A DNA stretch of 64,000 nt from a virus, in IMG/VR virus record IMGVR_UViG_3300020735_000007, positions 1 to 64,000 of that record; one strand, given 5' to 3'. The notes beneath the pieces were generated by a model. That model searched no databases, had not been told where the DNA came from, and saw only the letters and a list, made by a program, of their open reading frames with translations. The position numbers and the translations under genes are program-made. This document shows positions 6,740 through 48,339 of the stretch, piece by piece; the stretch's first letter is position 1; each line of letters opens with the position of its first letter.

Positions 6740-9700
6740 ATGTTCAAGTCAACTTTATTGAGTCTTCTAGCCGCAGCTTCACAGGCAAAGAAGGAGGCAC
6801 TGGAGAAAAAATATTTGGTTTCCCAAGGATTCGTAGAGATCTGTGCGAATATAGATCCAACTCCAAACGGTCAATATACCGAATGGCTAGTAAAAGTCTT
6901 GAGACATGACGAAAATGTGGGGCCAGCACTTCAAGATGAATTAAAAGATGCTCTGGAGGAGTTTGGACGTTTAAAAAATAGTGCTGCCTGGGCTACAGGT
7001 TTGATTAATGGTAAACCCAAAAATAATATTCTTTCCTATGCCAATTTTAACGATCTTATCAGTGTTATACAAGAATCTTCTCCTGATGACTATTCTAAGA
7101 AAGAGCGAGAGAGAGATTTACAGAGAAGAAGGAAACAATATTTAGCAGAAGGCTGTGAAGAGATCGGCAGTCCAGGTGAAGGTGTCGTATGTTATGAGCC
7201 GACTACTGTAAGAGCCGTGCAATTGATGGGGGAAGGTTCTCATTGGTGTACTAAGAACCCAGGCTATGCCCAACGTTATTTAAGTAGGGGAGCCATTTAT
7301 GTCTTTACTACAGAAGAAAAAGAAAGTTCTTATGAATCAGATCGCTATCTTCAGATTCATGTTCCGGATGATTCTGTCACAGGATTTGAAGCTCAAGATG
7401 CAGATGGTGAGGATATAGGAAACTGGGAAATTGAAGATAAATGTTATCAAGTCAATGATGAATGGTGGGGAATAGTTCAATGGTTGTCTAATTATGATAG
7501 GGATTTGGAAAGATATATCCGAGAAGGATTTATTTTTAATGATATTAATGATATGGCTCATTTTGAAAAATGTGATCAATGTGATGCATATATGGAAACA
7601 GACAGCTACGATACTATTTATGTGAATAATGATGACTCCCCTGATAAAGAAAGCCATAATTTTTGTTGCGAGGGATGTTTTAAAGAGTTTTATAATGATA
7701 TAATTGAGAAAAAAGTAAAGGCATTTGTTGCAACTATTCCAGGAAAAGAAGAAAGAAATCAAAAAGCTATGGATGATGCCGAGGAACTCATTTATGGGAC
7801 AGGCTGGGATCCAAAGGCCACCAAAGTATTTAGAGCAATGCATGAAGCAGCTATCCGAATGGGTCTCCCCAATACTGTTAACCATCACTATGCTCTTGAT
7901 TGGTATTTAGCTAATCTGACATCAGGTATTAGAGCTTTTGAAAATGGGCAGAGTGACAGAGTAGAAAAAGTGACCCCCGGATTAACTCTAGGGGATTATA
8001 AATGGGCCTTGAAAGTCCTTCAGCCGGTTTATGATGAACTGATGACTTATGATACGCTTTACGATGACATACTAGAATATGTTAAGGACCAATTCACCCC
8101 TACGAGTACAGATATTGATGATATTATTGAAAATAGTGGAATGGGCAAAGTGCAAGAGGAATCAGCACCAGAAATAGAGGGTGAAATAGCAACAGATGAA
8201 CTGGAACCTACCTCTGAACCTTCTGAAAAACTGAAGAAATCTTCACTTTCTAACTTTAAATCTGCTCTATTGAAATTTGCCGCCGCTTCGGAAGCTAAGA
8301 AAAAAGCTCTTGCTTCTAAATATCATCTCCCTCCTCATGGGGTAGATACTCTATCTTTAGTTGACCCTTCTCAAAATGGAGAATATTTAGAATGGTTATG
8401 TAGAGAGACTAGAAAAGCTATGGATGATCCAGAAGGTAGATCTTCGCTAGCCGGAACAATGAAACGAGATGATATTAAAATTATGCTTGAACGTTATGCT
8501 ATGCTAAAACGTAGTGCTAATTTTACTGGTGAAAAAGATATCATGAAGTTAGGTCTTTCAGATCTTAAAGAAATATATGACACGGCTACTAGAGCCGACC
8601 TATCCAAAAATGAGCAGGGTAGAGAATTAATTAGAGAGAAGGATAAGTATCTCAGAGATGGTTGTGAGCCTTTAGCTAAGACCAGAGGTTACTCCTTCTA
8701 TCGTTGTACCACTCCAGAAGCCTTGGTGCTTATGTCAACAGGTTCCCATTGGTGTACACAGGGGGAGGGGACCGCTGAAGCCTATCTGGAACGTGGTCCT
8801 CTCTATGTTATTACTCAGGACAGTGGCACCAATGAGCATTATGGTTCTGATCGCTATGCACTCATCCGAGTCCCGACCAAAAATATTCAAGGTCAAGGAG
8901 TTGGTGCTATTGAATGCCAAGATGTAGATGGTAGAAATATTGGAGATCAGATATTTAGTAGGGATCCGTTTAGTGATAGTGCTGATGTTGGGCAAAAATA
9001 TGATGTAGATTCAAATTACTGGTGGATTTTTGAAACACTTGCAGAATTTGATCCGAAGATTAAAGAATCGATGGAGCAAAAAATTATCTTCCCTGGTGCT
9101 TGGGATATTAACAATGATAATGATCTCTATGAAGATCATGAAGATCAGGAGCTAACCAATTGTGCTAATTGTGATGAGCCTGTGGCAGAAGAAGATGCCA
9201 TCTATTTATCTGGCAATCCCTATTGTTGCAGTTATTGTGTAAGGGAGTATTTCCGACCAGCGATAAATCGTTTAATAGATAAGTTTCTGCCGAATGCTGA
9301 TGAAAATAAAAAGAGGAGAGCTAGAACCTATATTGAGGAACAACTAAACATCAATGGTTATGATGATCTTGAGGCAGAACGTGAGAAAATTTTGGTAAGG
9401 GGTGGGTTCTGTCAAAAATGTGAAGATTGCCATGAAGCTATACCAGCGGGAAATGAAATTAATTATAAAAAAGGCTCTTTTTGTGCTGTATCCTGCTTCA
9501 TTTCCTACTATATGCAGGATATGGATGATACCATGGCTTATATTCAGAAAAAATTAGGAATGGATGAAGATTCTCATTTCCAGATGTACGATGAAAAGAT
9601 AGCCGAGAGAGCCATAAGAAATGAAACTATGGGAATTGACTCTGGATTCTATCAGGCAACACTTCAAGTTCTTTTAGACACGAGGCAAATTACGGAGCAA

Positions 9701-36367: not shown

Positions 36368-37063
36368 TTACTCCTTGATATCATGTAATCGTTTGTCAAT
36401 CTCAGGATTAAAGTCTAACAATCGACTTGTTACTCCCATTATTCCTGCACCCCTATTGGTTTTAATTTCATCTTTTACATTAGGAGATTTAATCAAGCTA
36501 TTAGTTTTTTCTCTGCTAATTCTCACTACAGCATATTTGTTTAAAACGTCCAGAAATCCAGGTGTATAAATGTTGTTTTTTACACATTTAAATGCAGGGA
36601 AATTTCCTTTAATGACGAACCAAGTAGGCTTCCCAAGAGAATTTCTAGTTGCCATAGTAAATTCGTGTCGTTTTGCGGCATTATCATAATGAGGAAATAC
36701 AGAACATTCAATAACAAGTAAGTCGATATTTTCAATAAGAGTAGGATTTTCAATAGAGAGAGCTACCAAATGGCCGGGGTTTACAATCTTAAAAGATTTA
36801 AATCCTCTATTTAGAACTAAAGCGGTTTTTAAATGACATCGAACTGCTTCAAAATCGTCAGACTCTATAATTATATCCCTTCCTTCATTCAAATAGTGTA
36901 AAAGAGGAGTGCTAGTTAAGAATTTAGATGCTTTTAATTCTTTTACATGATTACGAATTTTTTCAATTTGAATACATTCGCACTCTTCCATACTAAATTC
37001 TTTGTTGGTAATTTTTAACCCAGTTCCATTACAAATTGGGCAGACACCAAATTTTGTTTCCAT
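36368..37063 (-). CDS. Hypothetical protein with an N-terminal zinc knuckle, 231 aa
   Basis: CPICNGTG and a downstream CEC form a zinc knuckle in the first 30 residues. The remaining 200 residues have strand-helix alternation resembling the core of DnaC-like AAA proteins, but no Walker A is visible. The start at 37063 overlaps the TAA of the SNF2 gene (TAATG). A degenerate helicase loader is one possibility; confidence in that is low. Confidence 0.6.
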   Translation of the reverse strand: METKFGVCPICNGTGLKITNKEFSMEECECIQIEKIRNHVKELKASKFLTSTPLLHYLNEGRDIIIESDDFEAVRCHLKTALVLNRGFKSFKIVNPGHLVALSIENPTLIENIDLLVIECSVFPHYDNAAKRHEFTMATRNSLGKPTWFVIKGNFPAFKCVKNNIYTPGFLDVLNKYAVVRISREKTNSLIKSPNVKDEIKTNRGAGIMGVTSRLLDFNPEIDKRLHDIKE

Positions 37064-39018
37064 TAGAAGTTCCATTTAGAGAAATCTAGCTCTTCCTTTA
37101 TTATTACTGACTTCTTCTTACCCTTTTCAAAGGCCATTTTGTAACCTTCCTGATCTTGAGCTTCTTCTAACATAGAGCCATTCAAGAAATCCCCCATTTT
37201 AGTTGTCTTAACATGAACCTTCAATAATTTTTTAAATTCTTCATCGTCATTCAATTTTTCCATTCCGGAGGCAAGATCAAGATCATTACCATCTTCTGAT
37301 AATACTCCCGCCGAATAGGATTCCCCAAGGATAATTTCAAATAACTGACCCTTCCCTTTGAGAGCTTCAATGGCATATTCGTCAATAGTACCTCTGGCCG
37401 GGATAATATGAAGGGAGCAAGCTGAGTGAGGACTAGCCATTCTCACCATACGGCCCACAGTTTGCAGCAATTGACCCCAGGACCAGGGAGCGTCCAGCAT
37501 GACCATATGAGCCGCCTGTTGGAGATTGACCCCCTCTGAGGCTGCGCTATTGATAAATAAAAGGGTATGGTTTGGATTTTCTTGGAATAGTTTCTTAACA
37601 ACATCTCGTTCTTTTTCATTTTCAGCCCCGGTAATGCGAAGAAATTTTCTATCTCCAAATTCACCCATTTCAAAAAGTTTTTCAAAACGGTCAATCCAGG
37701 ATCTACTTTTGGTAAAGACAATGACCTTCTCTCCCTCAAGATCACCGTCCAGAAGGTCCAGAAGCATTTCTTCCTTGGGAGATAACTTCTTTGTGTAAAA
37801 TTCAGCTTTGTTACCTGGATCAAGGAGTGCAGGGTGATTAGCAACTAACTGATAAACAGAGAGTTGAGTCATCATATTATTGGGGTCACGCTCTTTTTCG
37901 TAGAGTTCGCCCCCTTTTTTACGAATGGATGGAGGTAAAATAAAATTACCATTAGGGATGTCTTCAAGGAGCAATTTAGATTGCTTCTTATCCAAATCAA
38001 CAGGGTGATAAATAGTAGTTAATTTCGGTAAAGGTTCTTTTACTTGTGCCTGTGAACGTCCATAATAAAATGGCCTCATCCCAATCTTAAATTCTTTTAC
38101 ATTTTTATAACCGACCAAAACATCCTTCATTACCCCTCTACCCACATGAACTTGCTTATATATACAGAAACGATCACGAAATAGAGTCATGGCACCAAAG
38201 GGACGAATCCCTATGGCACAGGCGATTGAATACATTTCTTCAAGAGAATTTTGAATGATAGTAGCGGTCATGGCCCATATCACGCCAATATGCGGCTGCA
38301 ATTTAAGAATCATACGCCTAATTTGAGAAGTAGTGGATTTAAATTTTTGGGCCTCATCACACACTAAAATGACATTCTCACCATAACTTTTCATGAGATC
38401 AATGAGAGCTTGGACCTCTGGAGAAATCTCCTCTTTAGCACCTTTAGTAAGCGGATTGCCATCTTGATCAAACTCCCCTTCAATAGTGCGCCTTCGACCA
38501 ACTAAGGAGGTGTATTTGCAAATCAAAATGTTCTGAGTTTTAGATTTTAGAAAATTTTCTATCTGAGCCAGTCGAGCTTCAGACCCCTTCATTTTGTTAT
38601 AGGTATCCTGAAGAACTTCAACGTTTAAAGTGGTGAAATTTTCGTATTCTCCCTTCCACTGATAAGTGGTGGATTTGGTTCCCATAACTATAACTTTTAA
38701 ATTAGGGTTTTTAGATATTTTGTAAGCTGATGCCACAATCGCCATAAGTGACTTCCCTAGCCCGACTCCGTGACCATCAATATGTCGAGGCATTTTGATG
38801 AAATGAGCAATGGACTGAGTTTGATAGTTACGAATTTTGAGTTCTTTACCATTCTTCATAATGGTGCGAACAGTTGGAGGGTAAGTAATGGGGATAGGAC
38901 CAGTTTCAGGATCATGGGTTCTGATACTATACAGAAGTTCTAATGTCTTATGGGGGACATTTAATTTTTCAGTATAGGGAGTAATCAGAGGGCATACCTC
39001 TTCTTCAAGCGGGTCCAT
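37063..39018 (-). CDS. SNF2-type superfamily 2 helicase/translocase, 651 aa
   Basis: Walker A GHGVGLGKS, motif II CDEAQ, motif III MTATIIQNS, and in the second RecA lobe VIVFTKSRS, SAASEGVNLQ and QTVGRMVRM. The order and the DEAQ/GVNLQ patterns place it near SNF2 proteins and T4 UvsW-like helicases, which remodel forks and recombination intermediates. AGGAAG precedes the ATG, and a GTATTAA element lies 19 bases upstream of the start. Confidence 0.85.
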   Translation of the reverse strand: MDPLEEEVCPLITPYTEKLNVPHKTLELLYSIRTHDPETGPIPITYPPTVRTIMKNGKELKIRNYQTQSIAHFIKMPRHIDGHGVGLGKSLMAIVASAYKISKNPNLKVIVMGTKSTTYQWKGEYENFTTLNVEVLQDTYNKMKGSEARLAQIENFLKSKTQNILICKYTSLVGRRRTIEGEFDQDGNPLTKGAKEEISPEVQALIDLMKSYGENVILVCDEAQKFKSTTSQIRRMILKLQPHIGVIWAMTATIIQNSLEEMYSIACAIGIRPFGAMTLFRDRFCIYKQVHVGRGVMKDVLVGYKNVKEFKIGMRPFYYGRSQAQVKEPLPKLTTIYHPVDLDKKQSKLLLEDIPNGNFILPPSIRKKGGELYEKERDPNNMMTQLSVYQLVANHPALLDPGNKAEFYTKKLSPKEEMLLDLLDGDLEGEKVIVFTKSRSWIDRFEKLFEMGEFGDRKFLRITGAENEKERDVVKKLFQENPNHTLLFINSAASEGVNLQQAAHMVMLDAPWSWGQLLQTVGRMVRMASPHSACSLHIIPARGTIDEYAIEALKGKGQLFEIILGESYSAGVLSEDGNDLDLASGMEKLNDDEEFKKLLKVHVKTTKMGDFLNGSMLEEAQDQEGYKMAFEKGKKKSVIIKEELDFSKWNF

Positions 39019-41706: not shown

Positions 41707-41784
41707 TGGTGATCCCAACAGGATTTGAACCTGTGACTTTCGCCTTAAAAGGGCGGTACTCTATCCGGCCTGAGTTATGGGACC
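41707..41784 (-). tRNA. tRNA-Lys (anticodon TTT)
   Basis: Acceptor GGTCCCA pairs with TGGGATC, D stem ACTC/GAGT, anticodon loop CTTTTAA, T arm ACAGG-TTCAAAT-CCTGT, and an encoded CCA end. The first anticodon-stem pair is mismatched (C-A). It is the most normal of the lysine-type tRNAs here. Confidence 0.9.
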
Positions 41785-45247: not shown

Positions 45248-45332
45248 TGGTGGATGAGGGTGGACTTGAACCACCGACCTTCTAAGATGAACTCAATCAC
45301 CACTAGATGCTCTTTCTCTGAGCTACTCACCC
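45248..45332 (-). tRNA. Atypical tRNA with a 10-nt expansion of the anticodon arm
   Basis: Acceptor GGGTGAG/CTCATCC, D stem GCTC/GAGC, anticodon stem TCTAG/TTAGA, variable AGGTC, T arm GGTGG-TTCAAGT-CCACC and an encoded CCA are all normal. The space between the two anticodon-stem strands is 17 nt instead of 7 and can extend the arm by a GGTGA/TCATC stem with a TTGAGT loop. The anticodon cannot be assigned; GTG (His) is one reading if the extra 10 nt are removed. Confidence 0.7.
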
Positions 45333-45339
45333 TTGAAAT

Positions 45340-45457
45340 TGGTGCCCGAAGCGGGAGTCGAACCCGCAAACCATGGATTTTGGGTGTGACTACCTCCATC
45401 CACCTACATTAGAGGAGTCGATAAGTCCATTGCATATGCCAATTCTGCTATTCGGGC
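45340..45457 (-). tRNA. tRNA with a 41-nt insertion in the anticodon loop, probably Leu-type
   Basis: Acceptor GCCCGAA/TTCGGGC, a Leu-like D arm (AATTGGCATA), anticodon stem ATGGA/TCCAT, T arm GCGGG-TTCGACT-CCCGC and an encoded CCA are intact. The anticodon loop spans 48 nt (45378-45425), beginning CTTA and ending AAAA. Exact removal of 41 nt could leave CTTAAAA, the loop of tRNA-Leu(TAA). The insert folds into GACT-CCTC/GAGG-T-AGTC. The variable loop is only 5 nt, short for Leu. Confidence 0.7.
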
Positions 45458-45509
45458 GTTGTAAAAGAAAAGGTAAACAAACTTTCCAATGTAATATGGA
45501 GGGTTTACC

Positions 45510-46205
45510 ATGAAAATAAGAAGCTATACAGAAGAACAATTTAAAGAAGTTGTAGCAAACTCATTAAGTATCCGTCAAGTGCTGCTAACTTTAAATTTAG
45601 CAGGAAGCGGGGGAGCTTACTTAGGATTCAAAAGAGCCGTGGAAGAGTGGAATGTGGATACCTCTCATTTCACTGGTCAACTTTGGAGCAAGGGAAGAAA
45701 ATTTGAACCAAAAAGAGATATTCAAGACTATTTATCTAATAAATTCACCATTCAATCGTTTAAACTAAAAAATAGATTGTTCCAGGAAGGTATATTTAGA
45801 AGAGAGTGTTCTGTTTGTAACCTTACAGAATGGAACGGAGAAGAGGCCCCCCTTGAATTAGATCATATAGATGGCAACCCTCAGAATAATCTTATTTCTA
45901 ATCTCAGAATTATTTGCCCTAACTGTCATGCTCAAACTGTGAATCATGCTGGAAGAAATAAACGTAAGACACCAAAAATGATAAAAATGACAAAAGAGCA
46001 AAAGGTGCATAAAGTGTGTGTCTGTGGAAAAATTATTAGCCCAAGAGCTAATAATTGCGTTTTGTGTTCAAGAGCAACTTCCCCAAAAATTCAATGGCCC
46101 TCAAAAGAAGAGATATTGAATAAACTAAAAATTTCTAACTTCACAGCATTAGCCAAAGAGCTTGGGGTGTCTGATAATGCTATCAGAAAATACTTGAAAA
46201 GATGA
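45510..46205 (+). CDS. HNH homing endonuclease, 231 aa, inside the tRNA cluster
   Basis: CSVCNLTEWNGEEAPLELDH and NLRIICPNCHAQT form the HNH/zinc core. A second Cys pair (CVCGK ... CVLC) and a C-terminal helix-turn-helix (FTALAKELGVSDNAIRKYL) would bind DNA. It is on the plus strand, between two minus-strand tRNA genes, with GGAGGG before the ATG. The orientation and the HTH tail are typical of mobile free-standing HNH genes. Confidence 0.85.
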   Translation: MKIRSYTEEQFKEVVANSLSIRQVLLTLNLAGSGGAYLGFKRAVEEWNVDTSHFTGQLWSKGRKFEPKRDIQDYLSNKFTIQSFKLKNRLFQEGIFRRECSVCNLTEWNGEEAPLELDHIDGNPQNNLISNLRIICPNCHAQTVNHAGRNKRKTPKMIKMTKEQKVHKVCVCGKIISPRANNCVLCSRATSPKIQWPSKEEILNKLKISNFTALAKELGVSDNAIRKYLKR

Positions 46206-46209
46206 TTGT

Positions 46210-46300
46210 TGGTAGCCCCACCCGGAATCGAACCGGGACGCTACTGTTATTTCGCATTGGAATTTGAAGCCAACGTGTCTACCAATTTCACCATGGGGCC
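46210..46300 (-). tRNA. tRNA-Leu (anticodon CAA)
   Basis: Acceptor GGCCCCA/TGGGGCT (first pair G-T), loop TTCAAAT giving anticodon CAA, a long class II variable arm (about 18 nt), T arm TCCCGG-TTCGATT-CCGGG and an encoded CCA. Stem pair 31-39 is a mismatch. Confidence 0.88.
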
Positions 46301-46373
46301 ATAAGCCAGCTTTTTAGCAGGAAGCTGGAAACTGTTCACCATTAACGTGTTCCAACCCCTTCATTATAACAGT

Positions 46374-46523
46374 CTAGTAAGACTTGGGGTGGTATCTTGG
46401 TAGAAATGGAGCTGCTGAGAATCGGATATACCGATTGGGAGAATGCACAATGCCTTTTATCATGTTTTCACAGCATTCATCCCACTGAGGCGATGCAGAT
46501 ACAAATCCTTCAGGATTCAACAA
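46374..46523 (-). CDS. Possible small protein, 49 aa, weak start
   Basis: An open frame with protein-like composition (PEGFVSASPQWDECCENM ... FSAAPFLPRYHPKSY) between tRNA-Leu and tRNA-Gln. Only TTG codons at 46523 and 46520 are available as starts, and no good ribosome-binding site is seen; the frame continues into the tRNA-Gln 3' end. Could be a decayed gene or chance. A CCAGCTT/AAGCTGG hairpin lies downstream near 46305-46327. Confidence 0.35.
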   Translation of the reverse strand: MLNPEGFVSASPQWDECCENMIKGIVHSPNRYIRFSAAPFLPRYHPKSY

Positions 46524-46537
46524 CTCAGCGACATTGA

Positions 46538-46611
46538 TGGTTAGGGCGACAGGACTTGAACCTGTAAGGGAACCTTCAAAGGGTTCTGGTTTACCATTAG
46601 CCTACACCCCA
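46538..46611 (-). tRNA. tRNA-Gln (anticodon TTG)
   Basis: Acceptor TGGGGTG/CGCCCTA, beginning with U as in other tRNA-Gln, anticodon stem GAACC/GGTTC with loop CTTTGAA, T arm ACAGG-TTCAAGT-CCTGT and an encoded CCA. Normal class I length. It begins 6 bases after the stop of the small gene upstream. Confidence 0.9.
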
Positions 46612-46617
46612 CTTGTG

Positions 46618-46755
46618 TTACTTCCTGCTAGCCCCCCTTCTCTGCAACTCAAAACGAGCCGCAGCGTGAAGAAGAGAGCCACTACTGATGACCGACTGCA
46701 ACTGCTCATCGGACATCTTTTGCACAGACTTGCTGTGCTTTGCTGATTGGGCCAT
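46618..46755 (-). CDS. Small basic protein, 45 aa, behind a leader peptide and hairpin
   Basis: Reads MAQSAKHSKSVQKMSDEQ and ends RRGASRK; helical, basic, serine-rich. GGAGG lies 6 bases before the ATG, but that site is inside a 10-bp hairpin (46761-46786) preceded by a five-codon ORF, so translation looks conditional. Just downstream is tRNA-Gln. Function unknown. Confidence 0.65.
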   Translation of the reverse strand: MAQSAKHSKSVQKMSDEQLQSVISSGSLLHAAARFELQRRGASRK

Positions 46756-46760
46756 AAGGC

Positions 46761-46786
46761 ACCTCCAAACGTTAAGCGTTGGAGGT
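46761..46786 (-). promoter_or_regulatory. Hairpin sequestering the ribosome-binding site of the 45-aa gene
   Basis: Minus strand: ACCTCCA-ACG, loop CTTAA, CGT-T-TGGAGGT, i.e. 10 bp with one bulged T. The 3' arm contains GGAGG, the only ribosome-binding site of the 46618-46755 gene. Confidence 0.7.
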
Positions 46787-46789
46787 TAT

Positions 46790-46807
46790 TCAGGTGAAAC
46801 GACTCAT
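46790..46807 (-). CDS. Leader peptide ORF, MSRFT
   Basis: ATG-AGT-CGT-TTC-ACC-TGA with AGGAG 7 bases upstream, ending 3 bases before the hairpin that covers the next gene's ribosome-binding site. A ribosome on it would cover or disturb the hairpin. The arrangement is that of translational attenuators such as erm leaders. Confidence 0.5.
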   Translation of the reverse strand: MSRFT

Positions 46808-46825
46808 GTATTGCTCCTATGTGTG

Positions 46826-46838
46826 TTAATACCCAATT
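46826..46838 (-). promoter_or_regulatory. Recurring GGGTATTAA leader element
   Basis: Minus-strand AATTGGGTATTAA, 19 bases before the leader-peptide start. One base different from the 39037 and 42158 copies. Confidence 0.35.
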
Positions 46839-46849
46839 TTTAGAAAAAT

Positions 46850-47519
46850 AAACGTAGCGGAAAGATTTGTCTTGGGTTTCTCTGTTATGGGCTTCATGTA
46901 ATCACGGTCCCCCATTTTCTCCGTCCCAAGTATCCGTTACGATTACCCATTCAACTTCTTTGCATCAATCAGCTTGGTTCTGGATTGTTAGTTCCCTATC
47001 GTTTCAGGAACAAGTAGCCGTTTTCTCCAGCTTACCGTGAATGGGACCAGTAAGAAACGTGTTAGTCGGATGGTGAGTTCTCGTTTGAGTCTTGTTGACC
47101 TCTCCCCCACTGTCATTTTGCTCATTTCAGCCTCTCAACTGAAACATCCGACCTTAGATTTTTTTGGGTGGTTGCCGATCTATCAACTTCCTTTCTCATC
47201 GCCAGCCCTTACGAGTTATGGCACCCTGATTTACATCCCTGGTCTTCATGCCTGTCCAGGGTGAGTCTTGGATTTTGCAGCGTAGTTCCTGTGACCGGGA
47301 GCTTACAACGTGCCTCCCTCAGTGTAGCACCAAGATACTTTTTGGAGTTTTACGAGTTGCTCCAGGTGGCTTTGCGAAGGCTCCTGACTAGCTAGCGGCT
47401 AGGTCGCAAACCTGCTCATTTGCTATCGCGCTAGTTCTCGTCCAGTTTCACAAAAGCAAGCCATTGACCTTTACAACATGGCGTTATTCCCGACAAAAGG
47501 GAGGTCTGTTGTTTCTCCT
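46850..47519 (-). ncRNA. Candidate giant structured non-coding RNA, about 670 nt
   Basis: No credible gene on either strand, yet many complementary pairs: GTCGGATG/CATCCGAC (47065-47072 with 47145-47152), TTTCAG/CTGAAA (47125-47130 with 47139-47144), CCCTGG/CCAGGG (47237-47242 with 47256-47261), GCAAA/TTTGC (47406-47410 with 47419-47423), CTTGGG/CCCAAG (46871-46876 with 46925-46930) and TCACGGT/ACCGTGA (46902-46908 with 47034-47040). The last two cross, so a pseudoknot is possible. Size, phage context and tRNA neighbours recall GOLLD and ROOL RNAs. Minus strand is assumed from the flanking tRNAs and the promoter at 48689. Confidence 0.5.
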
Positions 47520-48092
47520 TCACTTTTTGCTTTTGTGCTGCTGTGTACTGGAAAATGCTGCTGGGTCACTATCTCTAGCAACGATCTCTTCAAGAACTTT
47601 CTGAACTCTAATCATTTTAAGATTCTTTTGTTTATTATTTTCATGCCTACCTCTCCAAGTTGGAGTTTGACTATGGCAGTTTGGGCACAGACCCTCAAGA
47701 TTTTCTCTTGAATCATCATTGTTGTTCCCATTTTTATGATCTACTTCTAGAGTAATTGGAAGGCCAAACCAAGAATCAATCTTACATCTATTACATTTCA
47801 ACTCTTGTTCAACAATAACTCTGGCTCTTTTAGAATCCCAAGCCAAGTCTTCAAACTTTTTGGAAAACAGGTAATCAAATCTGGTGGTTCTCTTTTCTCT
47901 CATTTTATCTAGTTTATCTTTTAGTCTTACAAGTTCCTCTTCAGTTAAAGAAGCATGAAACTCTTTATTTTTTAATGATTTGAGTTTTTTACTCTCTTCA
48001 CTAAAATTTTGAGAATTTCTACATTTTAAGCTACAGAAGCTCTTTAGCCCTTTTCCTGGAGTGAACTCTGCCCCACATTTTTTACATTGCAT
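47520..48092 (-). CDS. HNH homing endonuclease, 190 aa
   Basis: The N-terminus has a zinc ribbon (CKKCGAEFTPGKG ... CSLKC). The HNH core is CNRCKIDSWFGLPITLEVDH, then LCPNCHSQT. GAGG lies 5 bases before the ATG. It sits inside the RNA cluster, between two tRNA genes and the large non-coding region, on the same strand. Like the plus-strand HNH at 45510 it is probably a mobile gene that targets the cluster. Confidence 0.85.
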   Translation of the reverse strand: MQCKKCGAEFTPGKGLKSFCSLKCRNSQNFSEESKKLKSLKNKEFHASLTEEELVRLKDKLDKMREKRTTRFDYLFSKKFEDLAWDSKRARVIVEQELKCNRCKIDSWFGLPITLEVDHKNGNNNDDSRENLEGLCPNCHSQTPTWRGRHENNKQKNLKMIRVQKVLEEIVARDSDPAAFSSTQQHKSKK

Positions 48093-48144
48093 ACGAACCT
48101 CATTAATTATGAATCAGAAAGTCTAGAAGTTCGATTCCTTATTT

Positions 48145-48247
48145 TGGTACGCCCACCTGGATTTGAACCAAGACACTCCGCACATCTAGCGGCTACCTTT
48201 CGGTGGTTGGGTATAGGCCAACTGTTCTACCATTAAACTATAGGCGC
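48145..48247 (-). tRNA. Atypical tRNA with a 33-nt variable region
   Basis: Acceptor GCGCCTA/TGGGCGT, D arm GTTTAATGGTAGAAC, stem GTTGG/CCAAC with loop CCTATAC, T arm CTTGG-TTCAAAT-CCAGG and an encoded CCA. Between anticodon and T arms are 33 nt forming two hairpins, ACC-GAAA-GGT and CCGC-TAGATGT-GCGG. Position 33 would be C, not U, if the loop is read as drawn (anticodon TAT), so the identity is uncertain. Confidence 0.65.
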
Positions 48248-48253
48248 ATTGAA

Positions 48254-48339
48254 TGGTCCTCCCCACGGGAGTTGAACCCGCTATTCCTTACGGAAGGTGA
48301 CTTAAAAGGCCACTGCCATCACCGTGTGGCAAAGGGAGG
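48254..48339 (-). tRNA. tRNA with Lys-type anticodon TTT and a class II-like variable arm
   Basis: Acceptor CCTCCCT/GGGGAGG, D arm GCCA-CACGGTGA-TGGC, anticodon stem GTGGC/GTCAC with loop CTTTTAA, variable region of 15 nt containing TTCC-GTAA-GGAA, T arm GCGGG-TTCAACT-CCCGT, and an encoded CCA. Lys tRNAs normally have a 5-nt variable loop, so this is about 10 nt too long. Only 6 bases separate it from the next tRNA. Confidence 0.75.

Follow-up and report, generated by a model that had tools for sequence, protein, structure and literature searches.

A candidate minimal intron in a phage tRNA array: a 41-nt anticodon-loop insert common to two isotypes

To our knowledge, the introns in bacterial transfer RNA (tRNA) genes are large group I ribozymes, and we know of no tiny intron of the kind proposed below from bacteria or their viruses. 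The group I intron of cyanobacterial tRNA-Leu(UAA) sits after U34. Two other known systems bear on this locus: fungal tRNA ligases are related to the phage enzyme T4 Rnl1, and a staphylococcal tRNA-Gly used outside translation has lost G18G19. A 2014 review places all phage group I introns observed by then in protein-coding genes, despite the many tRNAs that phages encode (PMC3984707). Here we describe a tRNA array in viral DNA comprising positions 1 to 64,000 of IMG/VR record IMGVR_UViG_3300020735_000007 (the whole 64-kb stretch is the window; the contig that contains it is 100,876 bp long). The array includes a tRNA-Leu(UAA)-like gene, t45340 (genes are named by their first position), whose anticodon loop is interrupted by 41 nucleotides (nt).

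The 41-nt insert and its counterpart in a related phage

A comparison with 50,697 sequenced phages gave no close relative of the window phage. Its helicase (37063-39018) led to a clade of phages with large or huge genomes, and homologous tRNAs were compared within this clade and within a second set of phages reached through a DUF2828 relative. Clade members are rich in tRNA matches: about 49 in the 314-kb phage G006, whose helicase is 62% identical to that of the window phage, 26 in G003 (106 kb), 39 in G025 (221 kb), and 28–69 each in G030–G033 (158–463 kb). A tRNA-Asn(GUU) gene of G006 (L036:9451-9566) likewise has a 48-nt anticodon loop with a 41-nt insert. Aligned without gaps, the inserts of t45340 and of this gene are identical at 24 of 41 positions, a level reached in 2 of 200,000 shuffles, and both begin with AUCG, carry the loop AUGUNGGUGGAU and end in CC. 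Three of the four pairs in the lower stem are changed on both sides between the two copies, and this signal is lost when the partners are slid against each other; such covariation is supportive of the predicted stem, not conclusive. On paper the conserved loop (GGUGGAU) could also pair with the two ends of the insert (AUC, ACC) as a pseudoknot; we do not claim one, as the bases concerned are invariant and the pairing would be in competition with the covarying stem.

The junctions in t45340 fall at CUU/AUCG on the 5' side and CCC/AAAA on the 3' side, a shift by one base being equally possible. Removal of the 41 nt leaves canonical loops in both genes: CUUAAAA (anticodon UAA) on a Leu body with a short variable loop in t45340 and, on the Asn body of the G006 gene, CUGUUAA (GUU). 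Homologues that lack the segment, which the original prediction for this DNA had proposed to seek, do exist. Without its 41 nt, t45340 matches the uninterrupted tRNA-Leu(UAA) of Vibrio phage VspSw_1 at 62 of 77 positions with no change in length. Uninterrupted counterparts of the G006 tRNA-Asn occur in phage f2b1 and in L033, with a run of 26 identical nt that spans the junction; in f2b1 the blastn match lies under an annotated coding sequence. The Leu(UAA) gene of G006 is itself uninterrupted. Judged by these alignments, the insert is precise, missing from homologues, common to two isotypes (Leu and Asn), equal in length in both and endowed with a conserved stem-loop. Its presence in different isotypes in two phages points to mobility.

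The insert is rare. Anticodon loops of 48 nt occur in t45340 and the G006 tRNA-Asn alone among 942 unique tRNA calls from 3.09 Mb of compared DNA. A covariance model returned no further copies in 28 phage records apart from the two known genes and a duplicate assembly, and pattern scans (two across IMG/VR, one across GTDB genomes) found the insert in no other tRNA. Two further genes, one a tRNA and one tRNA-like, have enlarged anticodon loops, and both lack an encoded CCA: the tRNA (L124:7407-7506, equivalent to G025:60406-60505) holds ~29 extra nt that show no sequence relation to the 41-nt element, and the other (L033:9785-9914) has a 64-nt loop that by eye is also unrelated.

By the following tests, the insert is not a group I, group II or bulge-helix-bulge intron. 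First, a group I core takes roughly 200 nt or more, and Rfam, searched permissively across the region, gave no group I match; as in group I introns, U is the last base of the 5' exon in both copies, but the inserts end in C rather than G. Second, no Rfam match was obtained for the domain V of group II introns, and the ends read AUCG...CC. Third, inspection of sequence and folds reveals no pair of 3-nt bulges flanking a 4-bp helix, the internal loops measuring 6+10 and 7+9 nt. Among the phage genes of the window phage and G006, the splicing endonuclease PF01974 is absent; RtcB is likewise absent from both phages. No other Rfam families were detected in the tRNA region.

Proposed excision and the alternatives to it

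We give about an even chance to the proposal that the 41-nt segment of t45340 is an intron-like insert, small and mobile, that is cut from the precursor to leave a normal tRNA-Leu(UAA). Both junctions of the precursor would be cleaved, either by a nuclease or by the RNA, with self-cleavage by the conserved stem-loop as one possible route. The tRNA halves would then be joined by the phage's own RNA ligase, and the product, with its CUUAAAA loop, would read UUA, which is among the two most used Leu codons of the window phage. A T4-Rnl1-type RNA ligase is encoded by both the window phage and G006; the window phage also encodes RlaP and a CCA-adding enzyme, and a cREC domain is present somewhere in its proteome. 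An HNH-like gene lies ~50–60 bp from each interrupted tRNA (~50 bp in the window phage), and these neighboring endonucleases may have aided the spread of the insert by homing in trans. More tentatively, and at less than an even chance, the two genes may represent a new minimal mobile tRNA intron class in bacterial viruses: a conserved 41-nt stem-loop that enters different anticodon loops and whose removal relies on its own RNA chemistry or on a phage nuclease together with a ligase. If the shared insert is indeed spliced, bacterial viruses have, or exploit, another tRNA-splicing route, and the T4-type RNA ligases common in phages gain a role beyond repair.

Several observations weigh against excision. 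Only two copies of the insert are known, which makes the control on the stem a weak one: 62 of 500 shuffles perform equally well. The cutting step has no candidate nuclease. The Pfam scores of the HNH-like proteins fall under the cut-off, HNH-like genes are found elsewhere in such tRNA arrays too, and homology between the two insert-adjacent proteins is not convincing. Moreover, a second GUU gene, with a long variable arm, sits directly upstream of the interrupted tRNA-Asn of G006 (L036 about 9359-9447), where it was overlooked by Rfam, ARAGORN and the cloverleaf scan. The reading of Asn codons in that phage thus need not depend on the interrupted gene, which lowered our confidence in excision.

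The uninterrupted GUU gene next door also suits the alternative that survives best, in which the insert is retained. The interrupted tRNAs would then be decoys, or tRNAs that host tRNA-cutting enzymes cannot use, with the conserved loop as a binding site. A mostly non-decoding tRNA-like family in the same array and the RNA-repair genes of the phage are in keeping with this, and phage tRNAs with altered anticodon loops have been proposed to evade tRNases (PMC10264068). Resistance of the unusual tRNAs to anticodon nucleases, one of the meanings suggested in the original prediction, is no more than compatible with the RNA-repair genes. However, both inserts are exactly 41 nt long, and the 7-nt loops left without them are canonical and fit the tRNA bodies, a precision that decoys would not need, and we regard retention as unlikely, if still a serious contender.

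Rather improbable is a scar at the DNA level, left in non-working tRNA genes by a small mobile element or as protection of a site from the neighboring HNH enzyme. Both interrupted genes adjoin HNH-like genes, and G006 contains degenerate tRNA remnants, among them a copy that lacks the anticodon arm, as this explanation would have it; against it, the acceptor, D and T arms, the anticodon stems and CCA are whole in both interrupted genes, and the insert stem is compensated. That the resemblance is due to chance, and all four extra segments of the array to unrelated drift under weak selection, is highly improbable: the sequences are short, with two copies only, and these arrays hold other odd tRNAs, but the shuffled sequences so rarely reach the observed identity, even before equal length and position are counted, and the other three segments have homologues in other phages too.

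The other tRNA genes and their surroundings

A custom cloverleaf scan found exactly seven tRNA genes across the window (Table 1) and none in five shuffles, and all seven encode CCA. Four have enlarged anticodon loops or variable regions: 17 nt in t45248 (+10), 48 nt in t45340 (+41), 33 nt in t48145 (+28) and 15 nt in t48254 (+10). These counts agree with the original prediction, as does the ability of all four extra segments to fold. Its claim that the arms are intact holds for the acceptor stems (7/7 pairs), T stems (5/5 pairs) and CCA ends of all four genes, but the D-loop of t45248 reads AGAGAAA, without G18G19, and its D arm is not fully normal. Assembly error is an unlikely source of these genes, because two further IMG/VR records, one of 139,816 bp, contain an identical assembly of this DNA. 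The prediction had treated the four as one phenomenon, whereas comparison with homologues splits them into three different things. The suggested mini-intron is supported, by comparison, for t45340 but not for the other three genes, and a tRNA-like RNA with another job fits t45248.

Table 1. Features of the tRNA array and their coordinates in the window
Feature	Coordinates	Strand	Evidence
tRNA-Lys(UUU), ordinary	41707..41784	-	ARAGORN, Rfam, scan
tRNA-like gene (t45248) without G18G19; extended hairpin replaces anticodon arm (17-nt loop, 45286-45302)	45248..45332	-	Scan; relatives in G003, G006 and further viral contigs
tRNA-Leu(UAA)-like gene (t45340), short variable loop, anticodon loop interrupted	45340..45457	-	Scan; closest to Leu tRNAs
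41-nt intron-like insert AUCGACUCCUCUAAUGUAGGUGGAUGGAGGUAGUCACACCC	45382..45422	-	Ungapped match to tRNA-Asn insert of G006
HNH-like endonuclease gene, candidate homing enzyme	45510..46205	+	PF13392, E=4e-5, 23.5 bits vs cut-off 24.8
tRNA-Leu(CAA), ordinary class II	46210..46300	-	ARAGORN, Rfam, scan
tRNA-Gln(UUG), ordinary	46538..46611	-	ARAGORN, Rfam, scan
Second HNH-like gene, adjoins t48145	47520..48092	-	PF13392, E=8.5e-4, below cut-off
tRNA-Ile(UAU) (t48145), two variable-region hairpins (ACCGAAAGGU 48195-48204; CCGCUAGAUGUGCGG 48178-48192), C at position 33	48145..48247	-	Scan, fold
tRNA with anticodon UUU (Lys codons) (t48254), class-II-style variable arm (48282-48296)	48254..48339	-	Scan, ARAGORN

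Standard annotation recovers the array incompletely. ARAGORN called five of the seven genes; Rfam at its gathering cut-off detects t48145, and t48254 appears only in a permissive Rfam search. The interrupted Leu gene escapes both programs at cut-off, with merely a sub-threshold tRNA-Sec match in Rfam. A match to the Y RNA YrlA that spans two tRNAs was rejected, being far under threshold and accounted for by tRNA similarity.

The relatives of t45248 in G003, G006 and further viral contigs form a family with the D-loop AGNGAAA (no GG), the variable loop AGGUC in most members and a whole T arm. The anticodon position is taken by a hypervariable hairpin that differs in length and sequence among phages, and most members are missing a usable anticodon loop. 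From these features t45248 is probably a non-decoding tRNA-like RNA; our best guess is that the family has a decoy or non-translational role.

The original prediction named, as a finding that would refute it, homologous phage tRNAs with the same segments as standard class II arms. For t48145 and t48254 comparison shows just this, as the extra segments of both are class-II-style arms common to homologues in other phages. The arm of t48145, CCGC-UAGAUGU-GCGG, is a version of one present in at least 120 viral stretches, retrieved with a pattern that fixed the stem and AGAT and left the anticodon and remaining loop bases free. Among 80 stretches examined, the anticodon is UAU in 80 and the arm loop is CAGAUUA in 79. 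On this comparison the second hairpin of t48145 is the conserved phage variable arm of tRNA-Ile(UAU). A homologue in G006 has both hairpins, and the small extra hairpin with its GNRA loop recurs in G006 and L248. Counterparts of t48254 are found in G006 (L035:6342-6426) and G025 (L124:4380-4465). Long arms also occur in this clade on other isotypes that are normally class I (Arg, Thr, Gln, Pro, Ile and Asn). By sequence and predicted fold, t48145 and t48254 are thus class-II-like variable-arm tRNAs for which splicing is unneeded.

Variable-arm tRNA-Ile(UAU) genes are also present in cyanophages S-SRM01 (L338:601-688) and S-SKS1 (L339:601-679), whose published genomes annotate no tRNA there; a conserved tRNA has thus gone unannotated in both. 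In another clade member, G030, one tRNA (L131:1309-1412) has tandem anticodon-like arms, with a CUCUAAA loop (CUA) followed by a variable-region hairpin whose loop contains GUU; it looks like a partial internal duplication. A tRNA-like gene of ~61 nt in G006 (G006:201791-201851, in L036) apparently lacks the entire anticodon arm. Phage tRNAs with the amber anticodon CUA occur in several clade members including G006 (L344:128-201, L124:1604-1681, L136:4404 and 4490), and ARAGORN predicts a phage-encoded transfer-messenger RNA within the G006 array (L035:3527-3930).

Two other features of the window phage were recorded. Between tRNA-Gln and the second HNH-like gene lie ~900 bp (46612-47519) without a long open reading frame; on the minus strand, the first half of this interval exceeds shuffles in folding stability (z about -3.2). 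The interval has no Rfam match. A DUF2828/DUF7788 protein (PHROG 'RNA-binding protein'; L007:17214-18770) has kin in many phages with large tRNA arrays.

Comparison with known systems

No reports of such tRNA inserts were found in the literature, in a search that covered few subscription journals. The neighboring unusual tRNAs each resemble a described class in part. Like the staphylococcal non-translational tRNA-Gly, the t45248 family has lost G18G19, but most of its members also lack a usable anticodon loop. Like class II tRNAs, t48254 and t48145 have variable arms of at least 10 nt that form a hairpin. In contrast to the Leu, Ser and Tyr identities of that class, these arms accompany the anticodons UUU (Lys) and UAU (Ile); the loop of the Ile arm is nearly fixed, and some phages add a second small GNRA hairpin.

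The 41-nt insert may be compared with three systems. First, it shares with bacterial tRNA group I introns, such as that of cyanobacterial tRNA-Leu(UAA), an anticodon-loop site after U34 and a 5' exon ending in U, but it is 41 nt long and has neither a catalytic core nor a terminal G. Second, it is similar in size to the protein-spliced tRNA introns of archaea and eukaryotes, and its removal would likewise need cutting and ligation; however, it has no bulge-helix-bulge, its sites are 34/35 and 35/36 rather than 37/38, and the phages carry no splicing endonuclease gene. Third, the T4 Rnl1/Pnkp tRNA repair system has an Rnl1-type ligase of the sort found here alongside RlaP and a CCA-adding enzyme. 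Whereas T4 rejoins a cut tRNA, the reaction proposed here would lose a 41-nt piece.

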